The notes under the pieces are model-generated. The model had not been told where the DNA came from. It did no database searches and worked only from the letters and a program-made list of their open reading frames with translations. This document shows positions 1,972 to 16,777 of a stretch of DNA of 64,000 nucleotides, one piece after another. The translations under genes and the position numbers were made by a program. Source of the stretch: Bradyrhizobium sp. NDS-1 (lineage in GTDB: Bacteria; Pseudomonadota; Alphaproteobacteria; Rhizobiales; Xanthobacteraceae). Within the stretch, counting starts at the first letter, position 1. Each line of letters starts with the position of its first letter. Location: the NCBI RefSeq assembly GCF_032918005.1, contig NZ_CP136628.1, positions 2,837,501 through 2,901,500 on the forward strand, in the 5' to 3' direction.

Positions 1972-2282
1972 GGATTCCAGGGCAGGGAAGTCGTGGGCGC
2001 CTGTACAGCATCATCTTGTCCGGCTGCCGCGCGTTTTCCGGCTGCCACGCGGCTGAAGAAAACCGGCTGCTCGTGAGCATGACGACGGTGCTCGTGCCGT
2101 GGCTTTCGAGCTGCGCGATGCGACGCCGTTCCCGGTTGATTCTCCTGTCGGCTCAGCGTAAACAAGCCTGAAATCGCGTCGACGTTTTAGCATGCGGGCA
2201 AGAACATCGCGTATGATTTGTCCAGAGCCGCCGGCCGGTTCGGTCCATGCCGATCCCTTGCTCTCCCGCCGAGTCCTGTCGC

Positions 2283-3023
2283 ATGCCCGGTGAATTGCTG
2301 ATTGGCGAGGCCGTCGCAAGGGGCTATCCGCCCGCCGTGCTATACCTGCGCAACGACGAGATCGTCACGACGGAAATCTGCGCCTTCAACTACTTCTCGG
2401 TTTTCATGAAGGATCATCCGGAGGTGGATGCTCATGTCTGGCTCTTCGACGGGGCGGGCAAGCCGGCCGGATATTTCCACAGGGAACTCGGCGTCAACGG
2501 ACAATTGCAATTGCAGACGTCGGAGCTGTGTTCACGCGTTTCGGGAACGGTCGCGATGACGCTGGTCCCGAAGCACGAGACCAAGCTTCGTCCCGGACGG
2601 AAGGTGACGACCGGCTATTACGCACAATATTTCTCGCAGCACGGCGCGATAACGCTGTCGCACGAGCGCGAACCGGTCGCCGCAGCGCCGTTCCCGACCT
2701 CCGCCTGGATGCAATCCTATCTTACGCGGTTCTTGAAGGAGTCCGGCGTGGTGCTCGTGAACTCCTGCATCGCATCCGAGGGCGTCTCGGTCGGGACGGC
2801 CAGGCTCGTGGCCCTGGACGGCACCGAATTGGGTCAGCGTGCGCTGCCTGAGATCGCACCGATGGGCGCCGTTCGCATCGGCACGCTGGACCTTTTCCCC
2901 GAGGCTGAAGGGCTGATCGGCGCGGCCGAAGGTTTCGCCCTGGAGTTCAAGGGAACCAACATCGCCAGTCCGTTCAGTTATTATGAATTTGCCAACGGCA
3001 AGTTCAGCCTGCATCATTTTTAG
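2283..3023 (+). CDS. Beta-rich protein of unknown function, paralogue of the next gene
   Basis: A 246-residue protein with no signal peptide or membrane segment and no family I recognise. It carries two similar modules. The first, around HVWLFDGAGKPAGYFHREL, and the second, around ARLVALDGTELGQRALPEI, share a hydrophobic strand, a DG turn, a glycine, an E-L/I pair and a closing T-x-D/E-L strand. The neighbouring protein has the same two-module plan. ATG 2283 was preferred because the upstream alternative (ATG 2247) adds 12 residues with atypical codons. A DG-turn beta-sandwich role such as carbohydrate or ligand binding is possible but not shown. Confidence 0.62.
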   Translation: MPGELLIGEAVARGYPPAVLYLRNDEIVTTEICAFNYFSVFMKDHPEVDAHVWLFDGAGKPAGYFHRELGVNGQLQLQTSELCSRVSGTVAMTLVPKHETKLRPGRKVTTGYYAQYFSQHGAITLSHEREPVAAAPFPTSAWMQSYLTRFLKESGVVLVNSCIASEGVSVGTARLVALDGTELGQRALPEIAPMGAVRIGTLDLFPEAEGLIGAAEGFALEFKGTNIASPFSYYEFANGKFSLHHF

Positions 3024-3033
3024 GGGCGCATTC

Positions 3034-3957
3034 GTGACACGTTTCTCGTCCAGTCCCTGGAAGCCCTACGAGCCCCGATTCATGTTTCCGACTTTCGCGG
3101 GTGTCGAGTCGCGCATGGGTTTCTCGATCCCTGCCTGGTACCGTCCGGTCGACGTCAGGTATCTTCGTAGCCTCGTCGCCGGCAGCCTGCGCAAGAATCT
3201 TCGTGAAACGGTCAAGGATCTCGTGCCCGAGCTCGCCAGTCTGGTCGCCTCGGGCTTCAGCAAGAAGCTCCGGTTCAGGCTACACATCCTGTCGCGCGAT
3301 GGCGAGTACCGGGCGACCTACGCGTTTCCGGAAAGCTACGCGCCTGGCGCCTCCGTCGAGATCGAGCTGTCGCGCCTTTTCGCCTCGCTCGAGCTGCCGC
3401 AGGACGATTATCTGGTCATTGCCGTGATGTCGCGCGGTCGCATGGACGGCTTCCGATCCTCGCCTGCCAGCTATTCGATGACCTATGTCGATCGGGACAA
3501 CGTCGCGATCTACCGCACCGGCGCGTTTGCCCGCCCCTTGAACGAGGGCAGGCTCAAGGCGCATGTCGGGTTCACCGGAATTAATCCGAAGATCATTGCG
3601 ACCAGTGACATTGTCAGCAGCGTGATGCTGATCAATCACTCCTCTGATCCCGAATATGCTCATTCGGCGCGGCCGACCTCGAAGCTGATCCGCGAGGATG
3701 GCGAGCAGATCGAGGGCGATTTCGGCGAAATTCCGCCGCTCGGTGCGCGCGAGATGTCGGTCGTCGACATGTTCGGCAGTCGCGTGTTCGATTTTCTCAA
3801 GCCGTTCGGCGGTCGCGGGACCACGGTTACCACTTGCGTCGGAATGACACTCGCCAGCCTGCACTTGCAGCGCACGAACGATAATCGGCGGACGTTGCTG
3901 GGCATCGAGCACTCGCGTCCGGCGCACATGAATCTCGCCGGTATTCTGCAGCATTAG
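3034..3957 (+). CDS. Beta-rich protein of unknown function, tandem paralogue
   Basis: A 307-residue protein when started at GTG 3034, which has AGGGGC about 8 bp upstream; that Shine-Dalgarno overlaps the TAG stop of the preceding gene, suggesting coupling. It contains the same two-module layout as its neighbour: a first module around LHILSRDGEYRATYAFPES and a second around SKLIREDGEQIEGDFGEIP, each ending in an acidic-hydrophobic strand (ELSRLF, VVDMFG). The N-terminal 70 residues (FMFPTFAGVESRMGFSIPAW onward) are unique to this copy. No enzyme motif is visible. The pairing suggests the two proteins act together. Confidence 0.65.
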   Translation: MTRFSSSPWKPYEPRFMFPTFAGVESRMGFSIPAWYRPVDVRYLRSLVAGSLRKNLRETVKDLVPELASLVASGFSKKLRFRLHILSRDGEYRATYAFPESYAPGASVEIELSRLFASLELPQDDYLVIAVMSRGRMDGFRSSPASYSMTYVDRDNVAIYRTGAFARPLNEGRLKAHVGFTGINPKIIATSDIVSSVMLINHSSDPEYAHSARPTSKLIREDGEQIEGDFGEIPPLGAREMSVVDMFGSRVFDFLKPFGGRGTTVTTCVGMTLASLHLQRTNDNRRTLLGIEHSRPAHMNLAGILQH

Positions 3958-3987
3958 CTGGACGGGCCAATTTTCGGGGCGAGGGTG

Positions 3988-5178
3988 ATGCTGTCATCAA
4001 GTGGCGCACTTGGACGATTTTGGACTTCTGAGGCGGTCGTGAAGACACCATCTCTCGGCCTGGTACTCGGGTTCTGGATTGTCTCGAACATTCTGGTCAT
4101 TGCCTGGTATTGGGTAAATATATCCGACAGGTATCTCCCGGGTCTGCTGCGGTATGCCGGAATAGCCTTCTACGTGGCCGTCGCACTCGTTCCGCTGCTG
4201 CTCCTGTTCAAGGTGAGAAGAAGCTTCTTCAATCCGGTCACGCTGGGACTGCTCGTCAGTTGCTGCCTTGCGCTGTCCATCACTGCACACGAAGCCAACT
4301 TGCTTCGCGAGCAACTGCAGTTCAGTCTCGATCGCGAGCGCGAGTTTGCCCATACTGACGCTGTCGAGGGCGTCATGCGGCCGTTGTTCGCCAAGATTAC
4401 CGAGGCCTACGTCCAGATACTCGGCGACGATCGCACCCACGGGGGCTCGACCTTCTACACCCACATCGTCGCCAACTATCTGTTCGATTCCCTGTCGTTC
4501 CTCGCCGTATTTGCGTTGGCGACGCTGCTTCTCTCGCCGACTGCGACATGGCTCTGCCTACTCACCTTTGCGTTCTACACGCAGATCGCGATCTATCCGG
4601 GGCGCATGGGTCCCGTGTTCATCGCGGGCGGGTTGTTGTGGCAGCTCTTTCTGCTGACGTCGCGGCGATATCCCGCCGCGATCATTTCAGGACTGATCAT
4701 CAGCTTCGGGCGGACCGACGTCGTGTTCGCTTCAGCGTTCTCGCTTCTGAGCCTTGCAGCTTTCGAGCGGCGATGGCCGACCCTGAAGGAATGGGCTGTG
4801 TTCGGGCTGCTGATCGGTATCTCACTGGCCGTGCCGAAGGCGCTGATCTGGATGCATCCCGGAACGGACTACAAATCGTTCCTGGTCACGAATGGCGACT
4901 TCAGCAAGCTGGTTGGAAATCTGCAGACCATGAAACTCGTGGTCGCGATCGCAAGTCCCGTACTCGCGATCGCGATCGTGAGGACGCTTGCGCTGACCCG
5001 AACGATCGCCGTGGTCGGTTCGGCGTGTCTCGTTCATGTCGGGCTCGTCTTTTTCATCGCGGATTTCTCCGAGACGCGGCTCATCATCCCTGGACTGGCG
5101 GGGCTCGTGTTCGTGGCGAGTGAAGGACTTGGGAAATTGCTGGAAGGCAAGAATGACGGGAAAGCCGACAGCGGCTGA
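3988..5178 (+). CDS. Polytopic membrane protein, unknown function
   Basis: A 396-residue protein with about nine or ten hydrophobic segments, starting at ATG 3988 (GTG 3985 is directly in front). A long hydrophilic loop around residues 105-155 contains acidic clusters (SLDREREFAH, EGVMRPLFAKITEAY). The size and a large early extracytoplasmic loop are compatible with a GT-C glycosyltransferase, a wall-like transporter or an O-unit handling protein, but no diagnostic motif was found. It lies 30 bp after the paralogous beta-rich pair on the same strand and is probably in their operon. Confidence 0.68.
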   Translation: MLSSSGALGRFWTSEAVVKTPSLGLVLGFWIVSNILVIAWYWVNISDRYLPGLLRYAGIAFYVAVALVPLLLLFKVRRSFFNPVTLGLLVSCCLALSITAHEANLLREQLQFSLDREREFAHTDAVEGVMRPLFAKITEAYVQILGDDRTHGGSTFYTHIVANYLFDSLSFLAVFALATLLLSPTATWLCLLTFAFYTQIAIYPGRMGPVFIAGGLLWQLFLLTSRRYPAAIISGLIISFGRTDVVFASAFSLLSLAAFERRWPTLKEWAVFGLLIGISLAVPKALIWMHPGTDYKSFLVTNGDFSKLVGNLQTMKLVVAIASPVLAIAIVRTLALTRTIAVVGSACLVHVGLVFFIADFSETRLIIPGLAGLVFVASEGLGKLLEGKNDGKADSG

Positions 5179-5255: not shown

Positions 5256-6095
5256 CTACCAGACGCTCCGCCCACCATCCATGACCAGATTCTGTCCCGT
5301 CATGTAGCTCGATGCGTCCGAGCAGAGGAACTGCACAGCCGCGCGGTATTCGTCGACATCGGCCATGCGGCCCATGGGGATCAGGCGCGTCAGTCGTTCG
5401 ACGAAGGCCGGATCCTGGTTGTTGAAGACGCCACCCGGCGAGATCGCGTTGACGCGCACGCCATGATCGGCCCAATAGGTCGCCAGATATTTCGTCAGGC
5501 CGATCAGGCCGTGCTTGATCACCGAATAAGTCACCGGCTTCACCGGCTGTTCTTCTTCGCGCGTCACCTGCGGCTGACGGTACAGCCGCTGGTCCGGTGC
5601 AATCACGCCGAGATCGGAGGCGATGTTGAGGATCGCGCCGCGACGGCGTTTGGCCATCTCGCCGCCGAACACCTGCGCACACAGCATCGCACCGGTCAGG
5701 CCAACGGCGATTTCGGTCTGCCATTGCGGCACCGGGAACGCCTCGAAGCGCGAGGAGTGCATGATTCCCGGGCTCGACGTCACCTTCGGGTCGATCGCGG
5801 CGTTGTTGACGAGGATGTCGACGTTGATGCCACGGCCGGCAAGCTGATCGTTTGCGGCGCGCACCGATTCGAGCGAGGTGACGTCGATCTCGAGCGCGAT
5901 CAGATCGGCTGAAGGCGCAGACTGCTTCAGCGCCGCGACTGCAGCTTCGGCCTGCGCCAGTTTGACGTCGGTGACGACCACGCGCGCGCCGGCTTCGCTG
6001 AGCGCTGCGACGTGCTGCCTGCCCAACAGGCCGCCGGCGCCGGTCACGAGCGCGGTCCGTCCGGTCAGGTCGTAGCGGGAGGAGGGGTTTGCCAT
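5256..6095 (-). CDS. Short-chain dehydrogenase/reductase, PtmA-like
   Basis: A 279-residue classical SDR. The Rossmann motif TGAGGLLG lies near residue 18, NNAA near 98, a catalytic YSVIK motif near 190, and MTGQNLVMDGG at the C-terminus. The GLLG variant of the cofactor loop and the TPLGR/MGRMA-type tail resemble PtmA, an SDR found with flagellin nonulosonic-acid genes in Campylobacter; that is family resemblance only. ATG 6095 has AGGAG 6 bp upstream and lies 13 bp after the previous SDR stop, which excludes the longer frame from 6131. It is the last gene of the seven-gene sugar operon. It probably oxidises or reduces a sugar intermediate. Confidence 0.85.
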   Translation of the reverse strand: MANPSSRYDLTGRTALVTGAGGLLGRQHVAALSEAGARVVVTDVKLAQAEAAVAALKQSAPSADLIALEIDVTSLESVRAANDQLAGRGINVDILVNNAAIDPKVTSSPGIMHSSRFEAFPVPQWQTEIAVGLTGAMLCAQVFGGEMAKRRRGAILNIASDLGVIAPDQRLYRQPQVTREEEQPVKPVTYSVIKHGLIGLTKYLATYWADHGVRVNAISPGGVFNNQDPAFVERLTRLIPMGRMADVDEYRAAVQFLCSDASSYMTGQNLVMDGGRSVW

Positions 6096-6108
6096 CGAAG
6101 GCTCCTGT

Positions 6109-6870
6109 TCAGCTTCTGAGCTGGCCGCCATCGGCTACCATCACGCTGCCGGTGATGAAGGCGGCGCGGGGCGAAGCAAGGAAGGCGACGATATCGGCGA
6201 TCTCCTCGGGCGTGCCGAGCCGGCGCAGCGCCACCTCGCGCTGGAGCATGTCATCGACCGCCTGCTTGTTTTCGGCGATCTTGCGCGCCCAGGTGCCGTC
6301 CGCAGCCAGGATATTTCCGGGGGCGACCGCATTGATGCGGATGCCATCGAGCGCGAGCGGCCGCGCCAGGCCGCGCACGGTCGCATTGAGCGCGGCTTTG
6401 GCGGCATAGTAGGTGACGGGTGCACCAAGCGCCGCCATCCCTGCGATCGAGGAGATGCAGACGATGGCCCGGTCACCGCTGCCTTGGGCCATCAGCGGCC
6501 GCGCCGCTTCGATCATGTTGGTCGCAGCGAACAGATTCAGGTCGATGATCCGCGACCATTCCGCCGCAGTTTCCATGCCCGGCGGGACGGAGGCGCCGCT
6601 GCCGACATTGCAGACCAGGATATCGAGCCGACCCCATTGCTTGTCGACGCTTTCGACCAGTGCTTTCGCCGCGGCCGGATCGGTGACGTCTGCGATGTGG
6701 GCAGACGCGTTGATGCCGATCGTTGCGCGCGCAGCGTTCACCGCGTCGGCGCCACGCGCCGCGAGCGCGACATTGGCACCTTCCGCCGCGAGCGTCCTCG
6801 CGATCGCAAGTCCGATGCCGCGGCTGGCGCCGGTGACGAGCGCAACGCGATCGTTCAGCTCGAGCCTCAT
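6109..6870 (-). CDS. Short-chain dehydrogenase/reductase
   Basis: A 253-residue classical SDR with TGASRGIG at residues 14-21, the NNAG position replaced by CNVGSG, SSIAGM before the active site, and catalytic YYAAK. It ends with ITGSVMVADGG. The start overlaps the stop of the upstream isomerase by 4 nt (ATGA), indicating translational coupling. CNVG in place of NNAG is a mild divergence seen in a subset of SDRs. The substrate is unknown. As one of three SDRs in this operon it probably acts on a sugar or sugar-acid intermediate. Confidence 0.85.
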   Translation of the reverse strand: MRLELNDRVALVTGASRGIGLAIARTLAAEGANVALAARGADAVNAARATIGINASAHIADVTDPAAAKALVESVDKQWGRLDILVCNVGSGASVPPGMETAAEWSRIIDLNLFAATNMIEAARPLMAQGSGDRAIVCISSIAGMAALGAPVTYYAAKAALNATVRGLARPLALDGIRINAVAPGNILAADGTWARKIAENKQAVDDMLQREVALRRLGTPEEIADIVAFLASPRAAFITGSVMVADGGQLRS

Positions 6871-7715
6871 CGCGCTGCGTCCTCGATCCAGCCGACCGTC
6901 ATGTCGCGATATCGTGCCAGCGCGCCGGCATGGTCGCCGTCGGTTGCCCGGGCCGTCTGCAGGATGTATTGGCCCTTGTAGCCGGAGCGCTCGATCAGCC
7001 GGATCGTCTTGGCAAGGTCCGCATTGCCGGTGCCGAGCGGCACGGTGGTGCCGCCGCGGATGCGGTCCTTCACGTGTACATTGAGAATGCGGCGTGCATA
7101 GGCGGCGATCTCCTCGTCGCTGTCGTAGCCGAGCGAGGCGCTGTTGCCACTGTCGTAATTGATGCCGAAGGTCTCGGCCGGAAATGCCTCCATGAACCGG
7201 GCAAGCTCGTCCGGCGGCAGATCGGATTCGAAGACGATTTTGACGTTTCGTCTCGTCAGCAGCTCGGAGCGGGCAAGCAGCACGCGCTTCAGCGTATCGC
7301 TCTCGCTCTTGCGCTCGATCTTGCCGTTGTCGACCAGCGGGATCACGACGAACTCGATGCCAACGCGGCTACAGGCGGCGATCAGGAGATCGAGGTCGGC
7401 GACGAGCGCGTCGCGCACGACGGCATCGACCTTCCAGAACGGCGCCTGCATGAAGCAGTCGCCGGTCAGGCTCGGGATGCGCACGCCGTTCTCGCGCGAC
7501 AAGGCCAGAATCTCCTGCTGCCCCGGCTCGGTCGCCAGCGGGTTCTCGCGCAACCGTTCCTGATCGATGGTCCATTCCATCCGCGTCAGGCCGAGCGCCT
7601 TCGCGCGAGCGAATTCCTCCCGCCACTCGTCCCAGGGGAATGCCTGGATCTTGCCGTCGACCAGAGCCGAGAGCCGTCCCTGCATGAAGCCGATGCGTTG
7701 CAGCGTTGCGGTCAC
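6867..7715 (-). CDS. Sugar phosphate isomerase/epimerase-like TIM barrel
   Basis: A 282-residue protein of the xylose-isomerase-like TIM-barrel superfamily (AP endonuclease 2 fold). It begins GFMQGRLS, and conserved strands include RMEWTID, IEFVVIPLVD, KIVFESD, GINYDSGNS, LNVHVKDR and GQYILQTA. The acidic and histidine residues (E in FESD, D in YDSGN, H in VHVKDR, with a terminal Q/E position) fit a divalent-metal site. The GTG start at 7715 forms a GTGA overlap with the stop of the upstream SDR. Relatives include inosose dehydratases and ketose epimerases. Its partner barrel is fused to the NeuB-like synthase in the same operon. Confidence 0.8.
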   Translation of the reverse strand: MTATLQRIGFMQGRLSALVDGKIQAFPWDEWREEFARAKALGLTRMEWTIDQERLRENPLATEPGQQEILALSRENGVRIPSLTGDCFMQAPFWKVDAVVRDALVADLDLLIAACSRVGIEFVVIPLVDNGKIERKSESDTLKRVLLARSELLTRRNVKIVFESDLPPDELARFMEAFPAETFGINYDSGNSASLGYDSDEEIAAYARRILNVHVKDRIRGGTTVPLGTGNADLAKTIRLIERSGYKGQYILQTARATDGDHAGALARYRDMTVGWIEDAAR

Positions 7716-8476
7716 GATTTGGTATCCGAGCTGATGGCGAGACCTTTGGCGATCCAGCCGCCGTCGACGAAGATCTCCTGGCCGGTCACATAGGCGGAGG
7801 CGTCCGATGCCAGGAAGATCGCCGCTCCCACCATGTCGGCGGGCTGTCCCCACCGGCCGAGCATGGTGTGGCGTCGCCTGTCTTCGTGCATGACCGGATC
7901 GGCAAAACTCTTCGCGGTCATCTCTGTCGCGACGTAGCCCGGCGCAAGCGCGTTGACGCGGATGCCGTCGGGCGCGTAGTCGGCGGCGAGCGCGCGCGTC
8001 AGCCCCGCAAGACCCGCCTTCGCCGCCACGTAGCCGGGGTTGCCGGGAAAGCCCCGGATCGAATTGATGCTGGTGACGTTAACGATCGCAGCCGAGCCCG
8101 CCTTCTTCAAGAGCGGATACGCGGCGAGGATGGTGGCGTAGACGCCGGTGAGATCGGTCGCGACCGTGTCGCGAAAGCGCGCAAGCTCGCTTTCATCGCC
8201 TTGTGCGGGGAGGCTGATGCCGGCGGCGTTGACCAGCGTGTCGATATGCCTGCCTTGCGCCGCGATCATGCCGAATGCGTTTTCGATCGCCTTGTCGTCG
8301 GAGAGGTCGCAGGCAATCGGGGTCACGTCCTGCGGCGCGGTCCCGGAGCGGCTGAGGCCGAACACCATGGCGCCCGCGTCTTGCAGGCCGGTCGCAATGG
8401 CCGCGCCAATCCCCCGCGAGGCGCCGGTGACTACCGCGATCTTGCCTTTGAGCGAGAAGGCGCTGAGGTCAGGCAT
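7712..8476 (-). CDS. Short-chain dehydrogenase/reductase
   Basis: A 254-residue classical SDR. It has TGASRGIG near residue 17, CDLSDD for the adenine-binding Asp, NAAG near 82, SINS before the catalytic YVAAK, and YVTGQEIFVDGG at the C-terminus. It is the most conventional of the three SDRs. Its start overlaps the cytidylyltransferase stop by 8 nt, and its stop overlaps the isomerase start, so the genes are translationally coupled. It is likely a sugar or polyol oxidoreductase in the pathway; the substrate cannot be read from sequence. Confidence 0.87.
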   Translation of the reverse strand: MPDLSAFSLKGKIAVVTGASRGIGAAIATGLQDAGAMVFGLSRSGTAPQDVTPIACDLSDDKAIENAFGMIAAQGRHIDTLVNAAGISLPAQGDESELARFRDTVATDLTGVYATILAAYPLLKKAGSAAIVNVTSINSIRGFPGNPGYVAAKAGLAGLTRALAADYAPDGIRVNALAPGYVATEMTAKSFADPVMHEDRRRHTMLGRWGQPADMVGAAIFLASDASAYVTGQEIFVDGGWIAKGLAISSDTKS

Positions 8477-9158
8477 AGCCGTAACTTCGCATGATGGCGG
8501 CGCAAAGCTTGACGTCCTCGGGGCGGTCGATCTGGAACATCTTGTGACGCTCCATCATATGGAAGCCGATCTTGCCGCCGAGACGATTGTTCTGCTCGCG
8601 CAGGAGGGATGGGATCAGGACGTAGAACGAGCCGTTCTCCAAATAGCGCTTCTCGATTTGCTGCCGCATGCGGCGATTGCGAAAATCGTAGTTGATCGGC
8701 TCCGGTCCGTTTTGGCCGATCCGCCAGTTGAAATAATCCTCGACCTCGCAGACCGAGAGCAGGCTGTCGAGATGGTCGCGATCGAAGGCCGCAAGCGCGC
8801 TCTCGATGTCGCCGGGTTCGCGGATCGGCGAGGTGGCCTGGAGTGCGACGATCCGCTCGAACCGTCCCATCCGCTCGTCGATCGCATCGAGCGCATGTAG
8901 CCAAGCGGATTCGGAGGAGGCGAGGTCGCCCGAAATGTCGTCCGGACGCCGCACGCCGACGGCGCCGGCGGCCTCGGCCGCGGCGAGAATCTGATCGCTG
9001 TCCGAAGACACGGCCACCACATCGACGCCGCGGGCGGCGCGCGCCTGCTCGACCGTCCACGCGATCAGCGGTTTGCCACAGAGATCGAGCAGGTTCTTGT
9101 GCGGGATGCCCTTGGAGCCGCCGCGCGCGGCGATCACGGCCAGCGTCTTGCGCGCCAT
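8469..9158 (-). CDS. CMP-nonulosonate-type cytidylyltransferase (NeuA/PseF family)
   Basis: A 229-residue protein with the CMP-sugar synthetase fold. The nucleotide-binding loop IAARGGSKGIPHKN is at residues 9-22, followed by VAVSSDSDQI (metal and base contacts), RRPDDISGD and LQATSPIR. NeuA-family enzymes use CTP to activate a sialic-acid-like or Kdo-like ulosonic acid as a CMP-sugar. ATG 9158 overlaps the synthase stop by one base (TGATG), so the two are coupled. It lacks the C-terminal esterase domain of some NeuA proteins. The preceding synthase and this activator define the core of an ulosonic acid pathway. Confidence 0.85.
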   Translation of the reverse strand: MARKTLAVIAARGGSKGIPHKNLLDLCGKPLIAWTVEQARAARGVDVVAVSSDSDQILAAAEAAGAVGVRRPDDISGDLASSESAWLHALDAIDERMGRFERIVALQATSPIREPGDIESALAAFDRDHLDSLLSVCEVEDYFNWRIGQNGPEPINYDFRNRRMRQQIEKRYLENGSFYVLIPSLLREQNNRLGGKIGFHMMERHKMFQIDRPEDVKLCAAIMRSYGYA

Positions 9159-11083
9159 CAGATGTGCCCCTCGAGACGCTCGAGCGCGGTCCAGAAGCCT
9201 TCGCCCATGTTCTTGTGGCCCTGCCAAATCTCGGGAATGAACGACGCCGTCGGCGCATGCCGGCGGAGCACCTGTCCGATCTCGTTGAAATCGATCTCGC
9301 CTTCGCCGATCTGAAGTCCTTCGCCGTCGAGTCCCTTGGCGTCGCCGAAATGCAGATGCGCGGTGTGCGGGCCGAGCTGGGCGAGCCCTTGCGCGAGATC
9401 GAAGCCGAAATGATTGGCAGCTAGCTTCGTGTGGGAGATATCGACGCACATCCGCAAATCGTGCTTGGCGCAGAACGCGGCCGATTCCTCCGGGAAGATG
9501 AAGATGTTCTGGTGGCGCTGACCGCCGAAATGCCAGGGGAACGGCGCCATGGTCTGCGGCGTCAGCTCGACGCCGTCCATGTCGAGCTCGGTCAAGCTCT
9601 GCGCGAAGATGCGGTAGCGCTCGGCTTTCTCCTCCGGCGGCAGCGGCTCGTCCATGGTGAAGCCGCCGATATTGGCGACGATGGGCGGGCGCTTGGTCTT
9701 GGGAAAGTACTTCTTCAGGCCGCGGGTAATGTCGATCACGGCCTGTGTCTGCTCCAGCGAATAGCGCCGCAGGGCCTCGTCCGGCGTTGCGAGGTCCATC
9801 AGCTTGGAGCCGGCAAACAGCTCCGGCGCATGCACGACGAAGCCGAGATCGTAGGTGCCGGACAGATACGCTGCGGGATCGCGCTCCATGTCGCTGTAGC
9901 TGAGATGGAACTCGATGATGTCGGGCTCGCAGATCTCCAGGAAGCGCTCGGTGTCGTGATAGCGGACCGGCACACCCCAGGGGCGGTCGAAGCGGTATCG
10001 CCGTGCTTTCGCGGTGCCTTCATCGAGATCGCTCTGGAAGAAATAGTCGTCGGCCCCCATGCTCCGCGCCAGCTTGCGGCCGAGCAGCGCCGGCATCTTC
10101 AGCGGCGAGAGCCCCTGTCCCGGGCTCTTCACCGCGATGTCGGCTTCGGAGATCACGGTGCCGGCCGAAAGATCGCGCGCGGCCACCAGGCTCTTGGCGA
10201 GGTTCTCGCGGTTGATCAACTCGCCCTGGCTCAGCGCGCGCTCGGCCAGTTTCTCGCCGCGCGCCGCCTCCACCTCGCGGATGCCGGAGACCAGCGATCT
10301 GAATTCCTCCGGCTCCAGGCTCGCGGCATGGTCCGGGCCTTCCATCTCCCGGTCGAGGGTGATGTGGCGTTCGATGACGACGGCGCCGAGCGCGACGGCG
10401 GCCGTTGAAACGGCAATGCCGCGCTCGTGGCCCGAATAGCCGACGACCGGATGGATCTCGCGCAACGTTTCCATGAAGCGGAGATGGATGTTGTGGAGCG
10501 CGGCCGGATAGGTGCTTTGGCAATGCAGGAGCACGTAGCTAGCGTTGCGGTCGTCGAGGAACTTCGCCGCGGCCTTGATCTCGTCCGTCGTGCTCATGCC
10601 GGTCGAGACGATCAGCGTCTTGCCGGTGGCGGCGAGGCGCGCGAGCAGCGGCAGGTTGGTAAGGTCGGCGGAGGCTACCTTGTAGGCTTGCACGCCGAAG
10701 CCTTCGAGCACGGCGACGCTGCTCGCGTCCCAGGGCGTGCAGAGATACTGGATGCCCTTCGCCGCGCAGTACTCGGCGATTTTCTTTTGCTGCGCGGTCG
10801 GAAGCTCGAAACGGCGCAACAGGTCGAGCGTATACTCGACTGCGAGGTCGTCGTCCTTGCCCGAGAGGCTCGACGCACGGTAGACCTCGTCCAGCTTCCG
10901 CATCTGGAACTTGGCGCAATCGGCCCCGGCCGTGACCGCGGCATCGACCAGGGCAATGGCGCGATCGAAGTCGCCATTGTGGTTGTTGCCGATCTCGGCA
11001 ATGACGTAGCAGGGTTCGCCGTTGCCCAGAAGATGGTTGCCGATGCGGACCTGAGAGGGCTGTTTGGGCGATGTCATCAACAT
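9158..11083 (-). CDS. NeuB-like PEP-condensing sugar acid synthase fused to a TIM-barrel isomerase domain
   Basis: A 641-residue two-part protein. Residues 10-285 are a NeuB barrel: AEIGNNHNG (29-37), STGMST (160-165), HCQSTYPA (187-194), GYSGHERG (215-222) and ERHITLD with GPDHAASLEPEE (238-260). Residues 291-350 are the antifreeze-like SAF domain (NRENLAKSLVAARDLSAG). NeuB enzymes join phosphoenolpyruvate to a sugar aldehyde and normally end here at about 350 residues. Residues 360-641 add a second barrel of the sugar phosphate isomerase/epimerase type, with VDISHTK (547-553), HLHFGDAKG (576-584) and PEIWQGHK. The fusion suggests that the second barrel prepares or processes the substrate. 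It starts 15 bp after the kinase stop. Confidence 0.87.
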   Translation of the reverse strand: MLMTSPKQPSQVRIGNHLLGNGEPCYVIAEIGNNHNGDFDRAIALVDAAVTAGADCAKFQMRKLDEVYRASSLSGKDDDLAVEYTLDLLRRFELPTAQQKKIAEYCAAKGIQYLCTPWDASSVAVLEGFGVQAYKVASADLTNLPLLARLAATGKTLIVSTGMSTTDEIKAAAKFLDDRNASYVLLHCQSTYPAALHNIHLRFMETLREIHPVVGYSGHERGIAVSTAAVALGAVVIERHITLDREMEGPDHAASLEPEEFRSLVSGIREVEAARGEKLAERALSQGELINRENLAKSLVAARDLSAGTVISEADIAVKSPGQGLSPLKMPALLGRKLARSMGADDYFFQSDLDEGTAKARRYRFDRPWGVPVRYHDTERFLEICEPDIIEFHLSYSDMERDPAAYLSGTYDLGFVVHAPELFAGSKLMDLATPDEALRRYSLEQTQAVIDITRGLKKYFPKTKRPPIVANIGGFTMDEPLPPEEKAERYRIFAQSLTELDMDGVELTPQTMAPFPWHFGGQRHQNIFIFPEESAAFCAKHDLRMCVDISHTKLAANHFGFDLAQGLAQLGPHTAHLHFGDAKGLDGEGLQIGEGEIDFNEIGQVLRRHAPTASFIPEIWQGHKNMGEGFWTALERLEGHI

Positions 11084-11098
11084 TCTCGTCTCATATCG

Positions 11099-12475
11099 TC
11101 AGGCCAATCGCGCGGGAAAGCGCGACTTCCACGTTCGCAGCCCGTTCTCTTCGAACATGATGCGCGAGCAGCCATGCCCCTGTTGTTCCAGCGCAGCGAT
11201 GAGCTGGTAGCGTTCGAACGGCCGTACGAAGAACATGAAATAGCCGCCCCCGCCGGCGCCCAGCAGCTTGCCGCCGACCGCGCCATGCTGCTTGGCGAAA
11301 TCGTAGATCGCATCGATCGCGTCCGAAGAGATCTTCGAGCTCAGCTTCCGCTTGGCGTGCCAGGCCTCGTCGATCAGTCGGCCGCATTCAAGGAGCTGGC
11401 CGCGCAGGAGATGCCGCCGGATGTCGCGCGTCACTTCCTTCTGCTTGGCAGCGGCGGCGACCGCGTCGCGGGTCTCGTGCTGAGCCTTCTGGTCGCGGTG
11501 GATGGCGCCGGAATCGCGGCCGGAGCCCGTGTAGCAGAGCACCAGGCTCTCCTCGAGCTCGGCGATGATATTGGGGTCGAGACGCAGCGGCACGATGGTA
11601 TTCTGGTCGGAGAAGAACTCCATGTGATTGAAGCCGCCGAACACGGTGGCGTATTGATCCTGCCAGCCGCCGGGGATGTTGAGCATCAGCCGCTCGGCCT
11701 GGAACGCCATCTCCGCGATCTCGTGGCGGTCCCACTGGTCGCCGCGGAATTCGTTGAAGCAGCCGATGATGGCAGAGGTGACCACCGCAGAGCCGCCGAG
11801 GCCGGAGCCGACCGGGAAGTCGGCGGAGACCTCGAGCTCGAATCCATAGGTCGGCTTGATCAGGCGCACGACGGACTTGATCAGCGCAAGGTCTCCGTCC
11901 GTTCCGAGTTCTGCGAGATTGTTGGCCTCGATCGTACGACGAAAATCGTGTGAATAGATCCGGATGCTTGAATCGTTCCGGCGCCGCAACGTGGCGTGAG
12001 CGTACATCTTGATCGTGGCATTGATGACCGCGCCGCCATCGTTCTCCACGAAATAGTGTGTCAGGTCGGTGCCGCCGCCGGAGAAGCTGATCCGCACCGG
12101 CGAGCGCGCGCGCGCGAACACCTCGCTCTCTTCGGACAGATTGAACAGCTCGCGGCTGAACACGTCGACGAGTCGTCCCTCGCCATCCAGGATCGGCACC
12201 ACGTGCACGCGTTGGTCGAGCAATTTGAGGATCTGTTCGCGCGGACCGCCGGTACGTGCCCAGACGAAGTTGCGATTGATGCAGGTCGCAACCCGGTCCT
12301 GGATCGTTGTGCCGGCCAGCATGCGCCTGCGGATGTCGCCGTCCGTCACCGCGCCGACAATTCGTCCGCTCGCGTCCTGCGCGAACAGGATGCCGAGCAT
12401 ATTTGCATTGAGGCGCCGGAAAGCTTCCTCAATTGTCTCGGTCTCGGAGATGGTGACGAGGGTTCGTTCAAGCAC
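11099..12475 (-). CDS. CBS-domain pair fused to a GHMP-family sugar kinase (HddA-like)
   Basis: The start GTG 12475 gives 458 residues; longer frames would run through the promoter. Residues 5-110 are a CBS pair (VLERTLVTIS, MLGILFAQDASG, GAVTDGDIRRRML, HVVPILDGEGRLVDVFSR). Residues 124-455 are a GHMP kinase: RSPVRISFSGGGTD, the phosphate loop PVGSGLGGSA near 221, GWQDQYATVFGG near 270, and the C-terminal GAGGGGY near 406. Its closest named relatives are D-glycero-D-manno-heptose 7-phosphate kinases (HddA). In legionaminic acid clusters the CBS pair is joined to a nucleotidyltransferase (PtmE), not a kinase. CBS pairs often bind adenine nucleotides and may regulate the kinase. First gene of the seven-gene operon. 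Confidence 0.85.
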   Translation of the reverse strand: MLERTLVTISETETIEEAFRRLNANMLGILFAQDASGRIVGAVTDGDIRRRMLAGTTIQDRVATCINRNFVWARTGGPREQILKLLDQRVHVVPILDGEGRLVDVFSRELFNLSEESEVFARARSPVRISFSGGGTDLTHYFVENDGGAVINATIKMYAHATLRRRNDSSIRIYSHDFRRTIEANNLAELGTDGDLALIKSVVRLIKPTYGFELEVSADFPVGSGLGGSAVVTSAIIGCFNEFRGDQWDRHEIAEMAFQAERLMLNIPGGWQDQYATVFGGFNHMEFFSDQNTIVPLRLDPNIIAELEESLVLCYTGSGRDSGAIHRDQKAQHETRDAVAAAAKQKEVTRDIRRHLLRGQLLECGRLIDEAWHAKRKLSSKISSDAIDAIYDFAKQHGAVGGKLLGAGGGGYFMFFVRPFERYQLIAALEQQGHGCSRIMFEENGLRTWKSRFPARLA

Positions 12476-12525
12476 GTTTTGGGGTCCAGGAAGGGCCAAT
12501 TCCAGGCCATATCGCAGCCGAGTTC

Positions 12526-12554
12526 GTAATACGGGAGCGGCAGGGACGATGCAA
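12526..12554 (-). promoter_or_regulatory. Sigma-70-like promoter of the ulosonic acid operon, copy B
   Basis: Minus-strand -35 TTGCAT (12549-12554), 17-nt spacer and -10 TATTAC (12526-12531). Transcription would begin near 12519, leaving a leader of about 44 nt before GTG 12475. This is why the shorter kinase start was chosen. The same boxes, spacing and spacer sequence recur at 1943-1971. Confidence 0.5.
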
Positions 12555-12672
12555 GGTTCCTGGCCCCGGGGCATCGCGCCCAAATGGCGGCCATCGAGCG
12601 CTCCGGCCACGGGGTGGCCGATTTACTTTGGCGGAGGTTTCTATAGAAGGCTCCGCAAGGGGGCTCGGCGAC

Positions 12673-14310
12673 ATGTATGTGATCGGAATCAGCTCTGGGA
12701 TCAAGCACGGGCACCATGATGGTGCGGCGGTGTTATTGCGCGACGGAGAGTTGATCGCTGCCGCGGAGGAGGAGCGTTTCACGCTGGCGAAGCATGCACG
12801 TGGCGAACTGCCGCGTGGCGCGATCGGCTTCTGCCTGAAGCAGGCCGGCATTACCATGCGTGAGGTCGATTGGATCTGCTCGCCGCTGAAGACCTACACC
12901 AACTACACCCAGCGTCTCACCGAATATTTCAACTATCAGTTCGGCCACAGCCCTAAGATCGAACTCTACGACCATCACCTCTGTCATGCCGCGAGCTCGT
13001 TCTACGGCTCCGGTTTCTCGGAGGCGACCGTTGCCTGCTTCGACTTCTCGGGCGATTCCAGCTCGGGCCTCGTCGCCCATGCGCGCGGCAACGACTTCCG
13101 CGTGCTGACGCGGTTCGCCCGCAACAACAGCCTCGGGCTCTATTACGGGATGCTGACGCAGTATCTCGGCTATCAGATGACCAACGACGAGTACAAGGTG
13201 ATGGGCCTGTCTTCCTATGGCAGCCCTGAATACCTCGACAAGTTTGCCAAGCTCCTGCGGCCGAACGGCATCAACTACGAGCTCGATCCCGATCTCGACA
13301 AGCGCAGGCGCGACGCCGAGATTTTCACCAGCGATTTCTCGACCCGGCAGGAGCGCATCTTCACCGAGAAGATGGAGGAGATTTTGGGGCCGCGACGACT
13401 GCGCGGCCAGCCGCTCGATCCGCGGCTGACCAACATCGCCGCAAGCGGCCAGAAGCAGCTCGAGATCGTCACCACCGAAGTGATCCGTTCCGCGATCGCC
13501 GAGACCGGCTGCGGCGACGTCTGCATCGCCGGCGGTGTCGGCCTGAATTGCAAGATGAACATGGAGATTGCGGCCGAGCCGTCCGTGAAGCGTCTCTACG
13601 TTCCGCCTGTGCCGCACGATGCGGGCGTGGCGCTCGGCGCCGCGATGATGAAATGCGCGGAGGCGGGCCACGCGATCGCGCCGCTGACCCACGCTTATTG
13701 GGGACCGGATTATTCCAACGACACGATCCGGGAGACGCTCGACAAGATCGGGGCGCGGTTCGAGCTGCTCGACGATCCCGTGTCGCGCTGCGTCACCGAT
13801 TTGACCGAGCAGAAGACGGTGGGCTGGTTCCAGGGCCGGATGGAGTACGGTCCCCGCGCGCTCGGCAACCGCTCGATCCTGGCCGATCCCAGGCATGCGG
13901 GCATGAAGGACCGCATCAACCTCACCATCAAATACCGCGAGGAATTCCGCCCGTTCTGCCCGTCGGTGCTGTACGAGCGCCAGGCCGAATATTTCGAGGA
14001 CACTTTCGACGCGCCCTTCATGGTGGTGACGTTCCCGGTCAATGAGAAGGTCGCCGAGACCATGCCCGCGGTGGTCCATGTCGACAACACCGCGCGCATC
14101 CAGAGCGTCCATGCGGACAGCAACCCGCTCTACAGCCGACTGATCGGCGAATTCGCGAAGGCGACCTCGTTGCCGGTTCTGATCAACACCAGCCTCAACA
14201 TCAACGAGCAGCCGACCGTGAACGCCCCGCTGGAGGCGCTCCACACCTATTTCTGCTCGGGCCTGGACGTGCTGTATCTCGGCAATTACCGACTGTCGAA
14301 ATCGAATTGA
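12673..14310 (+). CDS. Carbamoyltransferase, NodU/CmcH family
   Basis: A 545-residue protein. The N-terminal half is the ASKHA-fold (YrdC-independent Kae1-like) domain with GISSGIKHGHHDGAAVLL, AAEEERFTLAKHARGE, YDHHLCHAASSFYGSGF and SYGSPEY. The C-terminal half includes GGVGLNCKMN and EYGPRALGNRSILADPR, then NTSLNINEQP. The family transfers carbamoyl from carbamoyl phosphate to hydroxyl groups via carbamoyl-adenylate, for example on Nod factors and cephamycins. ATG 12673 has AAGGGGG about 10 bp upstream. It diverges from the ulosonic acid operon, and a TATAGA box at 12642-12647 may be its -10. It probably O-carbamoylates a surface sugar. Confidence 0.9.
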   Translation: MYVIGISSGIKHGHHDGAAVLLRDGELIAAAEEERFTLAKHARGELPRGAIGFCLKQAGITMREVDWICSPLKTYTNYTQRLTEYFNYQFGHSPKIELYDHHLCHAASSFYGSGFSEATVACFDFSGDSSSGLVAHARGNDFRVLTRFARNNSLGLYYGMLTQYLGYQMTNDEYKVMGLSSYGSPEYLDKFAKLLRPNGINYELDPDLDKRRRDAEIFTSDFSTRQERIFTEKMEEILGPRRLRGQPLDPRLTNIAASGQKQLEIVTTEVIRSAIAETGCGDVCIAGGVGLNCKMNMEIAAEPSVKRLYVPPVPHDAGVALGAAMMKCAEAGHAIAPLTHAYWGPDYSNDTIRETLDKIGARFELLDDPVSRCVTDLTEQKTVGWFQGRMEYGPRALGNRSILADPRHAGMKDRINLTIKYREEFRPFCPSVLYERQAEYFEDTFDAPFMVVTFPVNEKVAETMPAVVHVDNTARIQSVHADSNPLYSRLIGEFAKATSLPVLINTSLNINEQPTVNAPLEALHTYFCSGLDVLYLGNYRLSKSN

Positions 14311-14312
14311 GC

Positions 14313-15536
14313 CTACCGCTCGTCCGCGATCACCTTGCCGTCGTTCGGCAGCGCGCCGGGACCGACCAGATCGACGCTTCCACCGAGTTTCGTCACGGCG
14401 CGCAAGCTGGCTGTGACCTCTTCGCGCAGGGCGTCGTTGGCGGTCGCAGTTTCCGCCTTCAGCGTCATCGCGTCGGTTTCTCCCTGTCGTGTAACGACGA
14501 GACGTAGTCTTCCGAGCGCGGAATGACGCTTGCCGATCTCGGCGATCTGTTCGGGGCGGATGAACATGCCCTTGACCTTGGTGGTCTGGTCGGCGCGGCC
14601 CATCCAACCCTTGATGCGCATGTTGGTGCGGCCGCAAGCACTTACGCCTGGCAGCGCCGCGGTAAGGTCGCCGAGAGCAAGCCGGATCCAGGGATGATGC
14701 GGGTCGAGCGAGGTCACCACGATCTCCCCGACGTCGCCGGGCGCCACGGGATCGCCGGTGCCGGGCTTGACGATCTCCAGGATCAGGTCCTCGTTCAGGA
14801 TCATGCCTTCACGAGCCTCGGTCTCGAACGCGATGAGGCCGAGATCGGCGGTGCCGAAGGCCTGGTAGGCGTCGATGCCGCGCGCCTTGATCTCGGCCTG
14901 GAGCGAGGGCGGGAACGCGGCGCCCGAAACCAGCGCGCGCTTGATCGAGGAGACGTCGCGGCCGGCGCTTGCCGCGGCATCGAGCAATATCTTCAGGAAA
15001 TCCGGCGTGCCGCTGTAGCCAACCGGGCGGTAAGCCTCGATCAGCTCGAACTGTTGCTCGGTATTTCCGGGCCCTGCCGGGATCACCGCGCAGCCAAGCG
15101 CACGCGCCGACGCATCGAAGATGAAGCCGCCAGGGGTGAGATGATAGCTGAAGGTGTTGAGGACGACGTCATCGGGGCGGAACCCGGCCGCGAACAGCGC
15201 CCTTGCGCCGCGCCAGGGATCGGCCTGCCGTCCCTCCGGCTCGAAGATCGGGCCGGGCGAGGTGAAGAGACGGGCAAACGAGCCGGGCGCGGCCGCCACG
15301 AAGCCTCCGAAGGGCGCAGAGGCCTTGTGCAGAGCGGGCAGTTCCGACTTGCGCAAGACCGGCAGGCCTGCCAGTGCCGCTCTGGAGGTCACGGCGGCGG
15401 GATCGACACCCCTGAGCCGGTCGGCATAGGCCGGGGCGGCTATCGCGGCTCGCAGCACCTCCGGCAGGCGGGAGAACAGATCGACCTCGCGCGCTGCTGG
15501 CTCACGCGTCTCGCGGGCGTCGTAATGGGCGGTCAT
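14313..15536 (-). CDS. Phenylacetate-CoA ligase (PaaK)-like adenylating enzyme
   Basis: A 407-residue protein of the PaaK branch of adenylate-forming enzymes. The C-terminal landmarks are good: YQAFGTADLGLIAFE (substrate/AMP site), GDVGEIVVTSLD, PWIRLALGDLTA, GRADQTTKVKGMFIRPEQI and the final lysine-bearing GKVIADER. The usual Ser/Thr/Gly-rich phosphate loop is replaced by FTSPGPIFEP, a variant seen in divergent PaaK-like proteins. It would activate a carboxylic acid, possibly with CoA. It ends 2 nt from the carbamoyltransferase stop, convergently. It may supply an acyl group for sugar decoration or may belong to unrelated aromatic catabolism. Confidence 0.75.
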   Translation of the reverse strand: MTAHYDARETREPAAREVDLFSRLPEVLRAAIAAPAYADRLRGVDPAAVTSRAALAGLPVLRKSELPALHKASAPFGGFVAAAPGSFARLFTSPGPIFEPEGRQADPWRGARALFAAGFRPDDVVLNTFSYHLTPGGFIFDASARALGCAVIPAGPGNTEQQFELIEAYRPVGYSGTPDFLKILLDAAASAGRDVSSIKRALVSGAAFPPSLQAEIKARGIDAYQAFGTADLGLIAFETEAREGMILNEDLILEIVKPGTGDPVAPGDVGEIVVTSLDPHHPWIRLALGDLTAALPGVSACGRTNMRIKGWMGRADQTTKVKGMFIRPEQIAEIGKRHSALGRLRLVVTRQGETDAMTLKAETATANDALREEVTASLRAVTKLGGSVDLVGPGALPNDGKVIADER

Positions 15537-15622
15537 GGCTGTTCTTTCCGTGTTGGCATCCGTTGCGCACCGCCACCGGCATGGGTATCAGACCGCCATT
15601 GGCGAGGCCTAGAGGGGACCCG

Positions 15623-16777
15623 ATGGCGGACGTAGGAAACATTGCGGTGGATGAGGCTGCGGACGTGGTCGCGCGCCTGAAGCGCCGCATGATCAACGAG
15701 GCGCTGCCGCTGTGGTCGACGGTCGGCTGGGATCATTCCGCGGGCGGCTTCATCGACCGGCTGCATCGCGACGGTACTGCGGATACGGCCGCGCCGCGGC
15801 GCGTGTTCGTGCAGGCACGCCAGATCTGGTGCTACGCCAAGGCCGCGCAGATGGGCTGGTATCCCGAGGGGCGCGAAACCGCGCTGAAGGGGCTGGAGCA
15901 TTTGCTGGCCAAGGCCAAAGCGCCTGACGGCAGGCCGGGTTATGTGCACAGGCTGACGCCGGACGGCGCGGTGCTCGACGGCCGGCGCGATGCCTACGAC
16001 CATGCCTTCATCCTGTTCGCGCTCGCGACCGTCTACGGGCTCGACCAGGACGCGCAGGTTCGTGCGGAGATCGACGCGCTGCTGGCTTTTCTCGATGGCC
16101 GCCTCCGCTCGCCGCATGGGGGCGTGCACGAAGGCCTTCCGATGTCGCTGCCGCGCCGGCAGAACCCGCACATGCATCTGTTCGAGGCGATGATTGCCTG
16201 CTTCGACGCGACACACGATCTTTCGTTCCAGAACCGTGCCGGCGAATTCTTCGCGCTGTTCCTGGCCAATCTCTACGACAAGCAGAAGCGCATCCTGACG
16301 GAGTATTTCGAGGAGGACTGGTCGAAAATCGAACCGGTCAGCGTCGAGCCGGGGCACCAGGCGGAATGGGTCTGGCTGCTGAAGGGTTTCGAACGCATCA
16401 CGGGATGTCCGACCGGGCAGCGGCGTGCCGAACTCCTGGCGACCGCGCTGCGCTATCGCGACGAGGCCACCGGCTGCCTGATCGACGAGGGGGACGACAT
16501 CGGCAACATTCGCCGCAGCACGCGCCGGCTTTGGCCGCAGACCGAAATCGCGAAGGCGTGGATTGCACAGGCCGAATCCGGCGAGGCGGGCGCGGCTGAC
16601 GAGGCGCGCGCGGCGCTGGTGCGGCTCGAACGACATTATCTCAGCCATCCCGTGAGGGGTGGCTGGTACGACCAGTTCGATCGCGACGGCAAGTCGCTGA
16701 TCGACACCATTCCCGCGTCGTCGTTCTATCATGTTCTCTGCGCAGTCACGGAAGCGGAGCAGGTGCTTGAAAGTTAA
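15623..16777 (+). CDS. AGE-family N-acylglucosamine 2-epimerase / mannose isomerase-like protein
   Basis: A 384-residue (alpha/alpha)6-barrel protein. Family landmarks are RRVFVQARQIWCYAKA, DAYDHAFILFAL, NPHMHLFEAMI, SVEPGHQAEWVWLL (catalytic His) and RRLWPQTEIAKAW. Members interconvert free sugars such as GlcNAc/ManNAc, mannose/fructose or cellobiose. The start ATG 15623 has AGAGGGGA 5 bp upstream, which favours it over a frame beginning at 15563. Its stop overlaps the convergent LivF stop by 4 nt (TTAA). Next to an ulosonic acid operon it may feed an epimerised sugar into that route, as AGE does for ManNAc. Confidence 0.85.
   Translation: MADVGNIAVDEAADVVARLKRRMINEALPLWSTVGWDHSAGGFIDRLHRDGTADTAAPRRVFVQARQIWCYAKAAQMGWYPEGRETALKGLEHLLAKAKAPDGRPGYVHRLTPDGAVLDGRRDAYDHAFILFALATVYGLDQDAQVRAEIDALLAFLDGRLRSPHGGVHEGLPMSLPRRQNPHMHLFEAMIACFDATHDLSFQNRAGEFFALFLANLYDKQKRILTEYFEEDWSKIEPVSVEPGHQAEWVWLLKGFERITGCPTGQRRAELLATALRYRDEATGCLIDEGDDIGNIRRSTRRLWPQTEIAKAWIAQAESGEAGAADEARAALVRLERHYLSHPVRGGWYDQFDRDGKSLIDTIPASSFYHVLCAVTEAEQVLES

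Follow-up and report, generated by a model that had tools for sequence, protein, structure and literature searches.

The closest described relatives of the seven-gene operon considered here, which lies within a 64,000-nucleotide stretch of the Bradyrhizobium sp. NDS-1 genome (the window), are the legionaminic/sialic acid routes, the GDP-D-glycero-D-manno-heptose pathway, and the CBS-NeuB-SAF-TIM cassettes of cyanobacteria, proteobacteria and others. Like the legionaminic/sialic acid routes, the operon has a NeuB-family synthase with a SAF domain, a cytidylyltransferase, a related short-chain dehydrogenase/reductase (SDR) and a CBS domain on a pathway enzyme; unlike them, it has (by Pfam and NCBIfam) no dehydratase, aminotransferase, N-acetyltransferase or hydrolyzing 2-epimerase, its synthase has a serine instead of the arginine that binds the N-acetyl group and is fused to a TIM barrel, and it includes an HddA-like kinase. 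The HddA-like kinase is shared with the GDP-D-glycero-D-manno-heptose pathway, an HddC-GmhB fusion is encoded 13 kb away, and relatives of GmhA, HddA, GmhB and HddC occur all together at two loci elsewhere (L110, L138), but the operon kinase differs from that pathway in bearing a CBS domain, in its sub-equivalog scores and in its coupling to a NeuB synthase. The CBS-NeuB-SAF-TIM cassettes have the same NeuB-SAF-TIM core and the same change from arginine to serine, but their CBS domain is on the synthase, and no CBS-HddA, stand-alone TIM barrel, GmhA or HddC relatives are found in their flanks (0 of 64). The D-tagatose, D-psicose and L-ketose 3-epimerases are 10-22% identical to the TIM domain among the matches listed, whereas in the window this domain is part of a NeuB fusion.

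The cassette is real and conserved; it is a variant of the known ulosonate pathways with a plausible new class of substrate, and no description of it was found in the literature searched. Neither a pathway joining NeuB to heptose nor a dec-2-ulosonic acid was found in that literature (titles and the beginnings of abstracts, with most subscription journals outside its coverage), no Bradyrhizobium O-antigen structures with ulosonic acids were found by title, and in PMC4823718 the word legionaminic occurs once, in the reference list. It is tentatively proposed, with somewhat less than even confidence, that the product of the operon is a CMP-activated 3-deoxy-2-ulosonic acid, built on a heptose-type precursor for a surface polysaccharide, in parallel to the conventional legionaminate pathway encoded nearby.

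Organization and conservation of the operon

The operon consists of seven tightly spaced minus-strand genes read from position 12475 to position 5256 (open reading frame list, Pfam and NCBIfam). The original prediction, made from the sequence alone, had listed a NeuB-like and a NeuA-like enzyme, three SDRs, two TIM domains and an HddA-like kinase in a seven-gene operon, and all of these are confirmed by Pfam and NCBIfam:

11099 to 12475, minus strand: CBS plus GHMP kinase, HddA-like, operon gene 1 (Pfam CBS, GHMP_kinases_N/C)
9158 to 11083, minus strand: fusion synthase of NeuB, SAF and AP_endonuc_2 TIM barrel in a single 641-residue chain (Pfam, NeuB 284 bits)
9161 to 10045, minus strand: C-terminal TIM barrel of the synthase, with a sugar 3-epimerase fold
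8469 to 9158, minus strand: NeuA/PseF-like cytidylyltransferase (CTP_transf_3, 69.5 bits)
7712 to 8476, minus strand: SDR3 (Pfam adh_short_C2)
6867 to 7715, minus strand: stand-alone TIM-barrel epimerase/isomerase (AP_endonuc_2)
6109 to 6870, minus strand: SDR2 (Pfam), which adjoins the TIM gene in other phyla
5256 to 6095 (longest open reading frame 5256-6131), minus strand: SDR1 (SDR family)

Four gene junctions are overlaps of 1 to 8 bases (the cytidylyltransferase start shares one base with the stop of the NeuB gene) and the other two are gaps of 13 to 15 bases. Promoter and terminator scans were uninformative, with no promoter-like sequences and five terminator-like sequences against 4.4 expected. 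The kinase, whose GTG start at 12475 was picked by eye against homologues, scores 262 bits against the HddA equivalog model NF049969, below the cut-off of 600, and so falls outside the heptose 7-phosphate kinase equivalog; its matches in the PDB are 3k85, 4n3o and 4usk/4usm (E values 1e-54 to 8e-60). The cytidylyltransferase scores 101 bits against the PseF model, below the cut-off of 205.7. Profile comparison of the synthase TIM barrel with the stand-alone TIM gave no match (probability 0.2%).

The TIM domain of the synthase is found in 54 of 195 Bradyrhizobium genomes, 47 with 86-100% identity (type 1) and seven with 45-47% (type 2). Gene context was compared in 20-kb windows, fetched in the case of type 1, the close homologues, for 18 of the 47 genomes. 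The order and strand of the kinase, synthase, cytidylyltransferase, SDR3, TIM, SDR2 and SDR1 are kept in all 18 type-1 loci, and since the same eight domain queries match there in the same order and strand, the operon is not a chance arrangement. At all seven type-2 loci, a NeuA-like gene adjoins a longer synthase (open reading frames of 750-812 residues; its CBS N-terminus was checked in L034), and the kinase, the SDRs and the stand-alone TIM have no match in the 20-kb windows.

The NeuB domain

The 284 bits of the synthase against the NeuB family (PF03102) exceed the cut-off of 22.1, and the SAF domain and catalytic residues are present. By mapping by eye, which leaves out N74 and F288, residues E25, Q55, T110, K129, Y186, S213, H215, E234, H236 and D247 of the meningococcal enzyme (NmNeuB) are conserved, and the departures are F112 to Trp, N184 to Ser and R314 to Ser. 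The score against the N-acetylneuraminate synthase equivalog TIGR03569 is 336 bits, below the cut-off of 399.65. In an alignment to 1xuu/4ipi/4ipj, Ser320 of the window synthase occupies the position of NmNeuB Arg314, a residue reported in PMC6795526 to contact N-acetylmannosamine and to help position its N-acetyl group. The arginine that marks synthases of N-acylated nonulosonates is present in both LegI controls and absent from the window enzyme; across the NeuB-TIM synthases this column is Ser in 107 of 108 and Cys in one, a count (like the tree below) that leaves out L032, which is 31% identical over the synthase and has Ala. Even if the product were a C8 or C9 sugar, loss of the N-acetyl-binding arginine would predict a family of non-N-acyl ulosonates. 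The C-terminal TIM barrel has a structural match to the sugar 3-epimerase fold over most of the domain, and residues 345-641 of the synthase are 97-98% identical to proteins from many Bradyrhizobium species among the best 120 of 6215 matches.

Two classes of NeuB-TIM cassette and the heptose-type genes of one

The TIM domain is found in 7 of 240 genomes sampled from the class (window genome included) and in 5 of 398 sampled from the phylum (four Bradyrhizobium and one other), and because it is so sparse in these samples, a collection of named genomes was used for gene contexts. A scan of these found at least 499 NeuB-TIM loci; the analysis used the best 80, which come from cyanobacteria, Proteobacteria, Bacillota, Bacteroidetes, Chlorobium, Nitrospirota, Verrucomicrobia and others. 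Sixty-four are CBS-NeuB-SAF-TIM, 15 are without CBS and one is without NeuB; after three incomplete loci (L094, L137, L140) were dropped, 13 CBS-less loci were counted, including L128, assigned to this class by hand in view of an N-terminal extension on its long open reading frame. Because the 80 were the top scorers against a CBS-fused sequence, the 64:13 ratio is not a natural frequency. When the L113 synthase was searched against proteins, 119 others of 628-645 residues were among the best 120 matches; the domains listed for 118 of these include NeuB, SAF and AP_endonuc_2 but not CBS. The CBS-less synthases, the window enzyme and its 18 type-1 relatives form one clade (32/32), with moderate FastTree support of 0.865.

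Neighboring genes were counted at E values up to 1e-10 with half of the query covered, within the flanks at hand. Relatives of GmhA and of the stand-alone TIM each occur at 9 of the 13 CBS-less loci, relatives of HddC and of the CBS-HddA kinase each at 10, and GmhB at two, and none of the five occurs at any of the 64 CBS-fused loci; for GmhA, HddC, CBS-HddA and TIM, Fisher p ranges from 4e-9 to 3e-10. The CBS-HddA gene immediately precedes the synthase gene at all ten CBS-less loci where the sequence reaches more than 0.5 kb upstream of the synthase. SDR1 is present at eight of the 13 CBS-less loci of other phyla; SDR2 alone is unspecific, because its query also matches at 10 of the 64 CBS-fused loci. 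The gene order at L110 is GmhB, HddC, CBS-HddA, NeuB-TIM, GmhA, two further genes, a class IV aminotransferase, TIM (56% identical to the window stand-alone TIM), SDR2 and SDR1. Of the two further genes, the one after GmhA, which has no NCBIfam match, is presumably SpsF-like, and the one before the aminotransferase appears by eye to be methyltransferase-like. Downstream of the synthase, a class III aminotransferase gene is present at L099, L113 and L120 and a class IV gene at L110, L121, L128 and L138; as 7 of 13 CBS-less loci thus have one or the other, the sugar probably also occurs in amino form in other phyla.

Residues around the active-site loop of the NeuB domain are class-specific (GPDHAASL versus GNDHKVSL), and so is the place of the CBS domain, which belongs to NeuB in the CBS-fused class and to the kinase in the CBS-less class. 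Comparison of the CBS domains of these loci, with no outside CBS domains, found those of the kinase, NeuB-TIM and the nucleotidyltransferase of the neighboring legionaminate set to be alike; the kinase CBS is 42% identical over 96 residues to that of NeuB-TIM at L028 and 35% over 109 residues at L034. Judged from these sequences, it is as if, in CMP-ulosonate pathways, one CBS regulatory module marked the step under control and had been shifted to the kinase in the CBS-less clade, the regulated step having changed place inside a single pathway.

The legionaminate set and the second NeuB

The genome of the window (G000) has two NeuBs in total. The second, 17 kb leftward, belongs to a legionaminate set situated 3-12 kb left of the window. 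Within G000:C1:2829366-2834447 are LegB (495.5 bits, cut-off 475), LegC (527.8, cut-off 420), NeuC/LegG (447.7, cut-off 235.9), a NeuD-type acetyltransferase (203.1, cut-off 160.8) and the second NeuB, which is the LegI of the set (459, cut-off 399.65). The same block has a putative PtmE (a CBS-nucleotidyltransferase), PtmF (a Gfo/Idh protein), LegF (a cytidylyltransferase) and PtmA (an SDR), and the HddC-GmhB fusion adjoins LegB, 13 kb from the operon kinase. The best PseB match in the genome is 160.1 bits, below the cut-off of 407.75. Judging by these genes, the legionaminate route beside the operon is conventional and apparently complete. LegB, LegC, LegG and the acetyltransferase are absent from the operon (Pfam, NCBIfam). 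The original prediction had remarked on the absence of an aminotransferase, an N-acetyltransferase and a hydrolyzing 2-epimerase, which is true of the operon and untrue of the genome; it comes from the limit of the window, which starts at 2837501, to the right of the legionaminate set. Since that set already includes a synthase and a cytidylyltransferase, the operon seems to encode a second pathway that runs in parallel. Two weak LegB-family matches at G000:C1:2740415-2741281 and 2808580-2809446, equal in score and open-frame length and 68 kb apart, suggest that a segment close to the surface polysaccharide locus has been duplicated.

The pairing of two NeuBs recurs through the genus. Exactly two are found in 53 of the 54 genomes with NeuB-TIM, the exception (G311) being an assembly of 510 contigs. 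A NeuB of any kind is present in 86 of the 195 genomes; among the 141 without NeuB-TIM, 32 have another NeuB and 109 have none (53 of 54 versus 32 of 141, Fisher p 5e-24, kinship ignored). The 54 genomes divide into 39 with LegB and 15 with PseB over the cut-off, with no overlap and none lacking both; 37 type-1 genomes are with Leg and 10 with Pse, and two type-2 genomes are with Leg and five with Pse. It is as if one glycan position required exactly one conventional nonulosonate, and in the simplest reading, a surface glycan would have two sites for ulosonates, with interchangeable cassettes supplying each of them.

Proposed pathway and alternatives

The substrate, chain length, order of steps and destination of the sugar are predictions in what follows. 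The HddA-like kinase, under control of its CBS domain, would commit a heptose-type sugar phosphate; the sugar would be activated; and partner enzymes (the HddC-GmhB fusion) and the stand-alone TIM with SDR1, SDR2 and SDR3 would reshape it by oxidation, epimerization and reduction. The fused TIM barrel may prepare or epimerize the substrate of the NeuB domain, which would condense the resulting aldose with phosphoenolpyruvate, and NeuA would activate the product with CTP. If the starting aldose is C7, the acid produced would be C10; this pair of substrate and product is a possible one with independent support. A non-canonical ulosonic acid pathway with a synthase and a cytidylyltransferase of its own, as the original prediction had it, is supported, and the guess there of a heptose-type precursor gains support from the occurrence of the same synthase clade in operons of other phyla with GmhA, HddC and CBS-HddA relatives, and with GmhB at two loci.

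Several observations weigh against this pathway. The window locus has as its heptose set the kinase and the displaced HddC-GmhB fusion, both below cut-offs (for the fusion, 122.5 of 300 and 129.9 of 149.6 bits), and the genome's single GmhA-like match, a weak one of 88 bits, lies at a distance of 0.6 Mb. The fusion belongs to the legionaminate block, and an HddC-GmhB pair is also found near a kinase-less type-2 cassette (L033). At L110, HddA (247 of 600 bits), HddC (108 of 300) and GmhA (169 of 209) are likewise below the NCBIfam cut-offs, GmhB being the sole heptose-type gene there over its subfamily cut-off (185 versus 149.6). Because of these low scores, another sugar phosphate is possible as the substrate. 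Of the 13 CBS-less loci, only two have a GmhB match and nine a GmhA match; 12 of them derive from metagenome-assembled genomes, and the 13 are not independent samples; the loop around NmNeuB Asp247 in the CBS-less class matches LegI and not the CBS class; and a hydrolase to free the aldose from a nucleotide sugar is not among the operon's families.

Some of the same observations would be explained if the product were a deaminated C9 (Kdn-like) or C8 acid made from a hexose or pentose, with the kinase, GmhA and HddC relatives acting on non-heptose sugar phosphates, which is possible but on the unlikely side. These relatives score under the family cut-offs; loss of Arg314 is compatible with any aldose that has no N-acetyl group; and since CBS-NeuB-TIM cassettes that have no heptose-type gene within reach are common (none of 64 has one) and the most frequent NeuB-TIM neighbor in both classes is a NeuA-family gene (55 of 80 loci), the NeuB-TIM core needs no heptose as such. 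However, the strict division of GmhA, HddC and CBS-HddA between the classes, together with the class-specific active-site loop, points to a change of substrate tied to the heptose-type genes.

That the operon is instead an accessory of the neighboring legionaminate or pseudaminate pathway, making a variant of those sugars, is improbable. It would account for the LegB or PseB in every one of the 54 NeuB-TIM genomes, for the resemblance of SDR1 to the SDR of the neighboring legionaminate set (40% identity, E 8e-61, to L004:7182-8171) and for the resemblance of the D247 loop to that of LegI, but one and the same cassette type accompanies Leg in part of the genomes and Pse in the rest, the operon has its own synthase and cytidylyltransferase, and at loci from other taxa a loose LegB match is in the flanks of just 14 of 80. 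Synthesis of bradyrhizose or its precursor, a link raised in the original prediction and suggested by C10 stoichiometry and host genus only, is scarcely credible and was rejected on distribution, chiefly because 14 of the 20 genomes with Photo_RC genes are without a NeuB match of any kind; NeuB-TIM is in 2 of these 20 versus 52 of 175 others (by itself not significant, p 0.07), and PMC4743980 suggests another cluster for bradyrhizose in photosynthetic strains, of eleven genes with a dTDP-glucose 4,6-dehydratase-like gene, for which polar effects were not excluded. The 20 genomes (of 195) marked by Photo_RC genes, two of them less than 90% complete, are not matched one to one with the strains of PMC4743980.

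If the heptose-type pathway is correct, the sialic-acid-like sugars gain a class of chain length, and many proteins at present called just N-acetylneuraminate synthase are explained; it would also show that labeling every NeuB a sialic acid synthase is misleading, and provide a signature (CBS-HddA beside a CBS-less NeuB-TIM) that would predict which bacteria bear the sugar. The wider proposal that many phyla make C10 (dec-2-ulosonic) acids from heptose and phosphoenolpyruvate through a dedicated NeuB-TIM clade, and that some bradyrhizobia pair one of these with legionaminic or pseudaminic acid in a single glycan with two interchangeable slots for ulosonates, is rather unlikely in full.

Genes beside the operon

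The following genes flank the operon:

12673 to 14310, plus strand: carbamoyltransferase (Pfam)
14313 to 15536, minus strand: PaaK-like AMP-binding protein (Pfam AMP-binding)
15563 to 16777, plus strand: GlcNAc 2-epimerase-family protein, AGE (Pfam)
920 to 1804, minus strand: methyltransferase, possible pathway accessory (Methyltransf_23)

The carbamoyltransferase, PaaK-like and AGE genes do lie beside the operon, as originally described; the carbamoyltransferase and AGE occur apart from the cassette, and the evidence on PaaK is thin. The carbamoyltransferase, found in 6 of 18 type-1 windows of 20 kb and near 6 of the 7 type-2 loci, was ruled out as a pathway member and is a flank gene unspecific to the cassette. 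AGE is probably a flank gene and was ruled out likewise, its relatives being present (wherever located) in 13 of 20 photosynthetic Bradyrhizobium genomes, seven of which have no NeuB match. The PaaK-like protein, in 14 of 18 type-1 windows and one of seven type-2 windows, is probably a flank gene too, the single type-2 locus (L033) speaking against membership. Beyond AGE are genes that, read from the open reading frame list, resemble a branched-chain amino acid transporter.

The methyltransferase may methylate the product, because a 77% identical relative is inserted between the kinase and the synthase at two of the 18 type-1 loci (L046:7643-8518, L047:7411-8286). Three plus-strand open reading frames without a Pfam match at 2247-5178 of the window are kept beside the cassette at L043, L045 and L057 (89-96% identity) and partly at L042 and L056. 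At 57954-59666, a long hydrophobic stretch after an HldE-like gene appears by eye to be O-antigen ligase-like; a putative O-antigen ligase here would fit the rfaL context described in PMC4743980.

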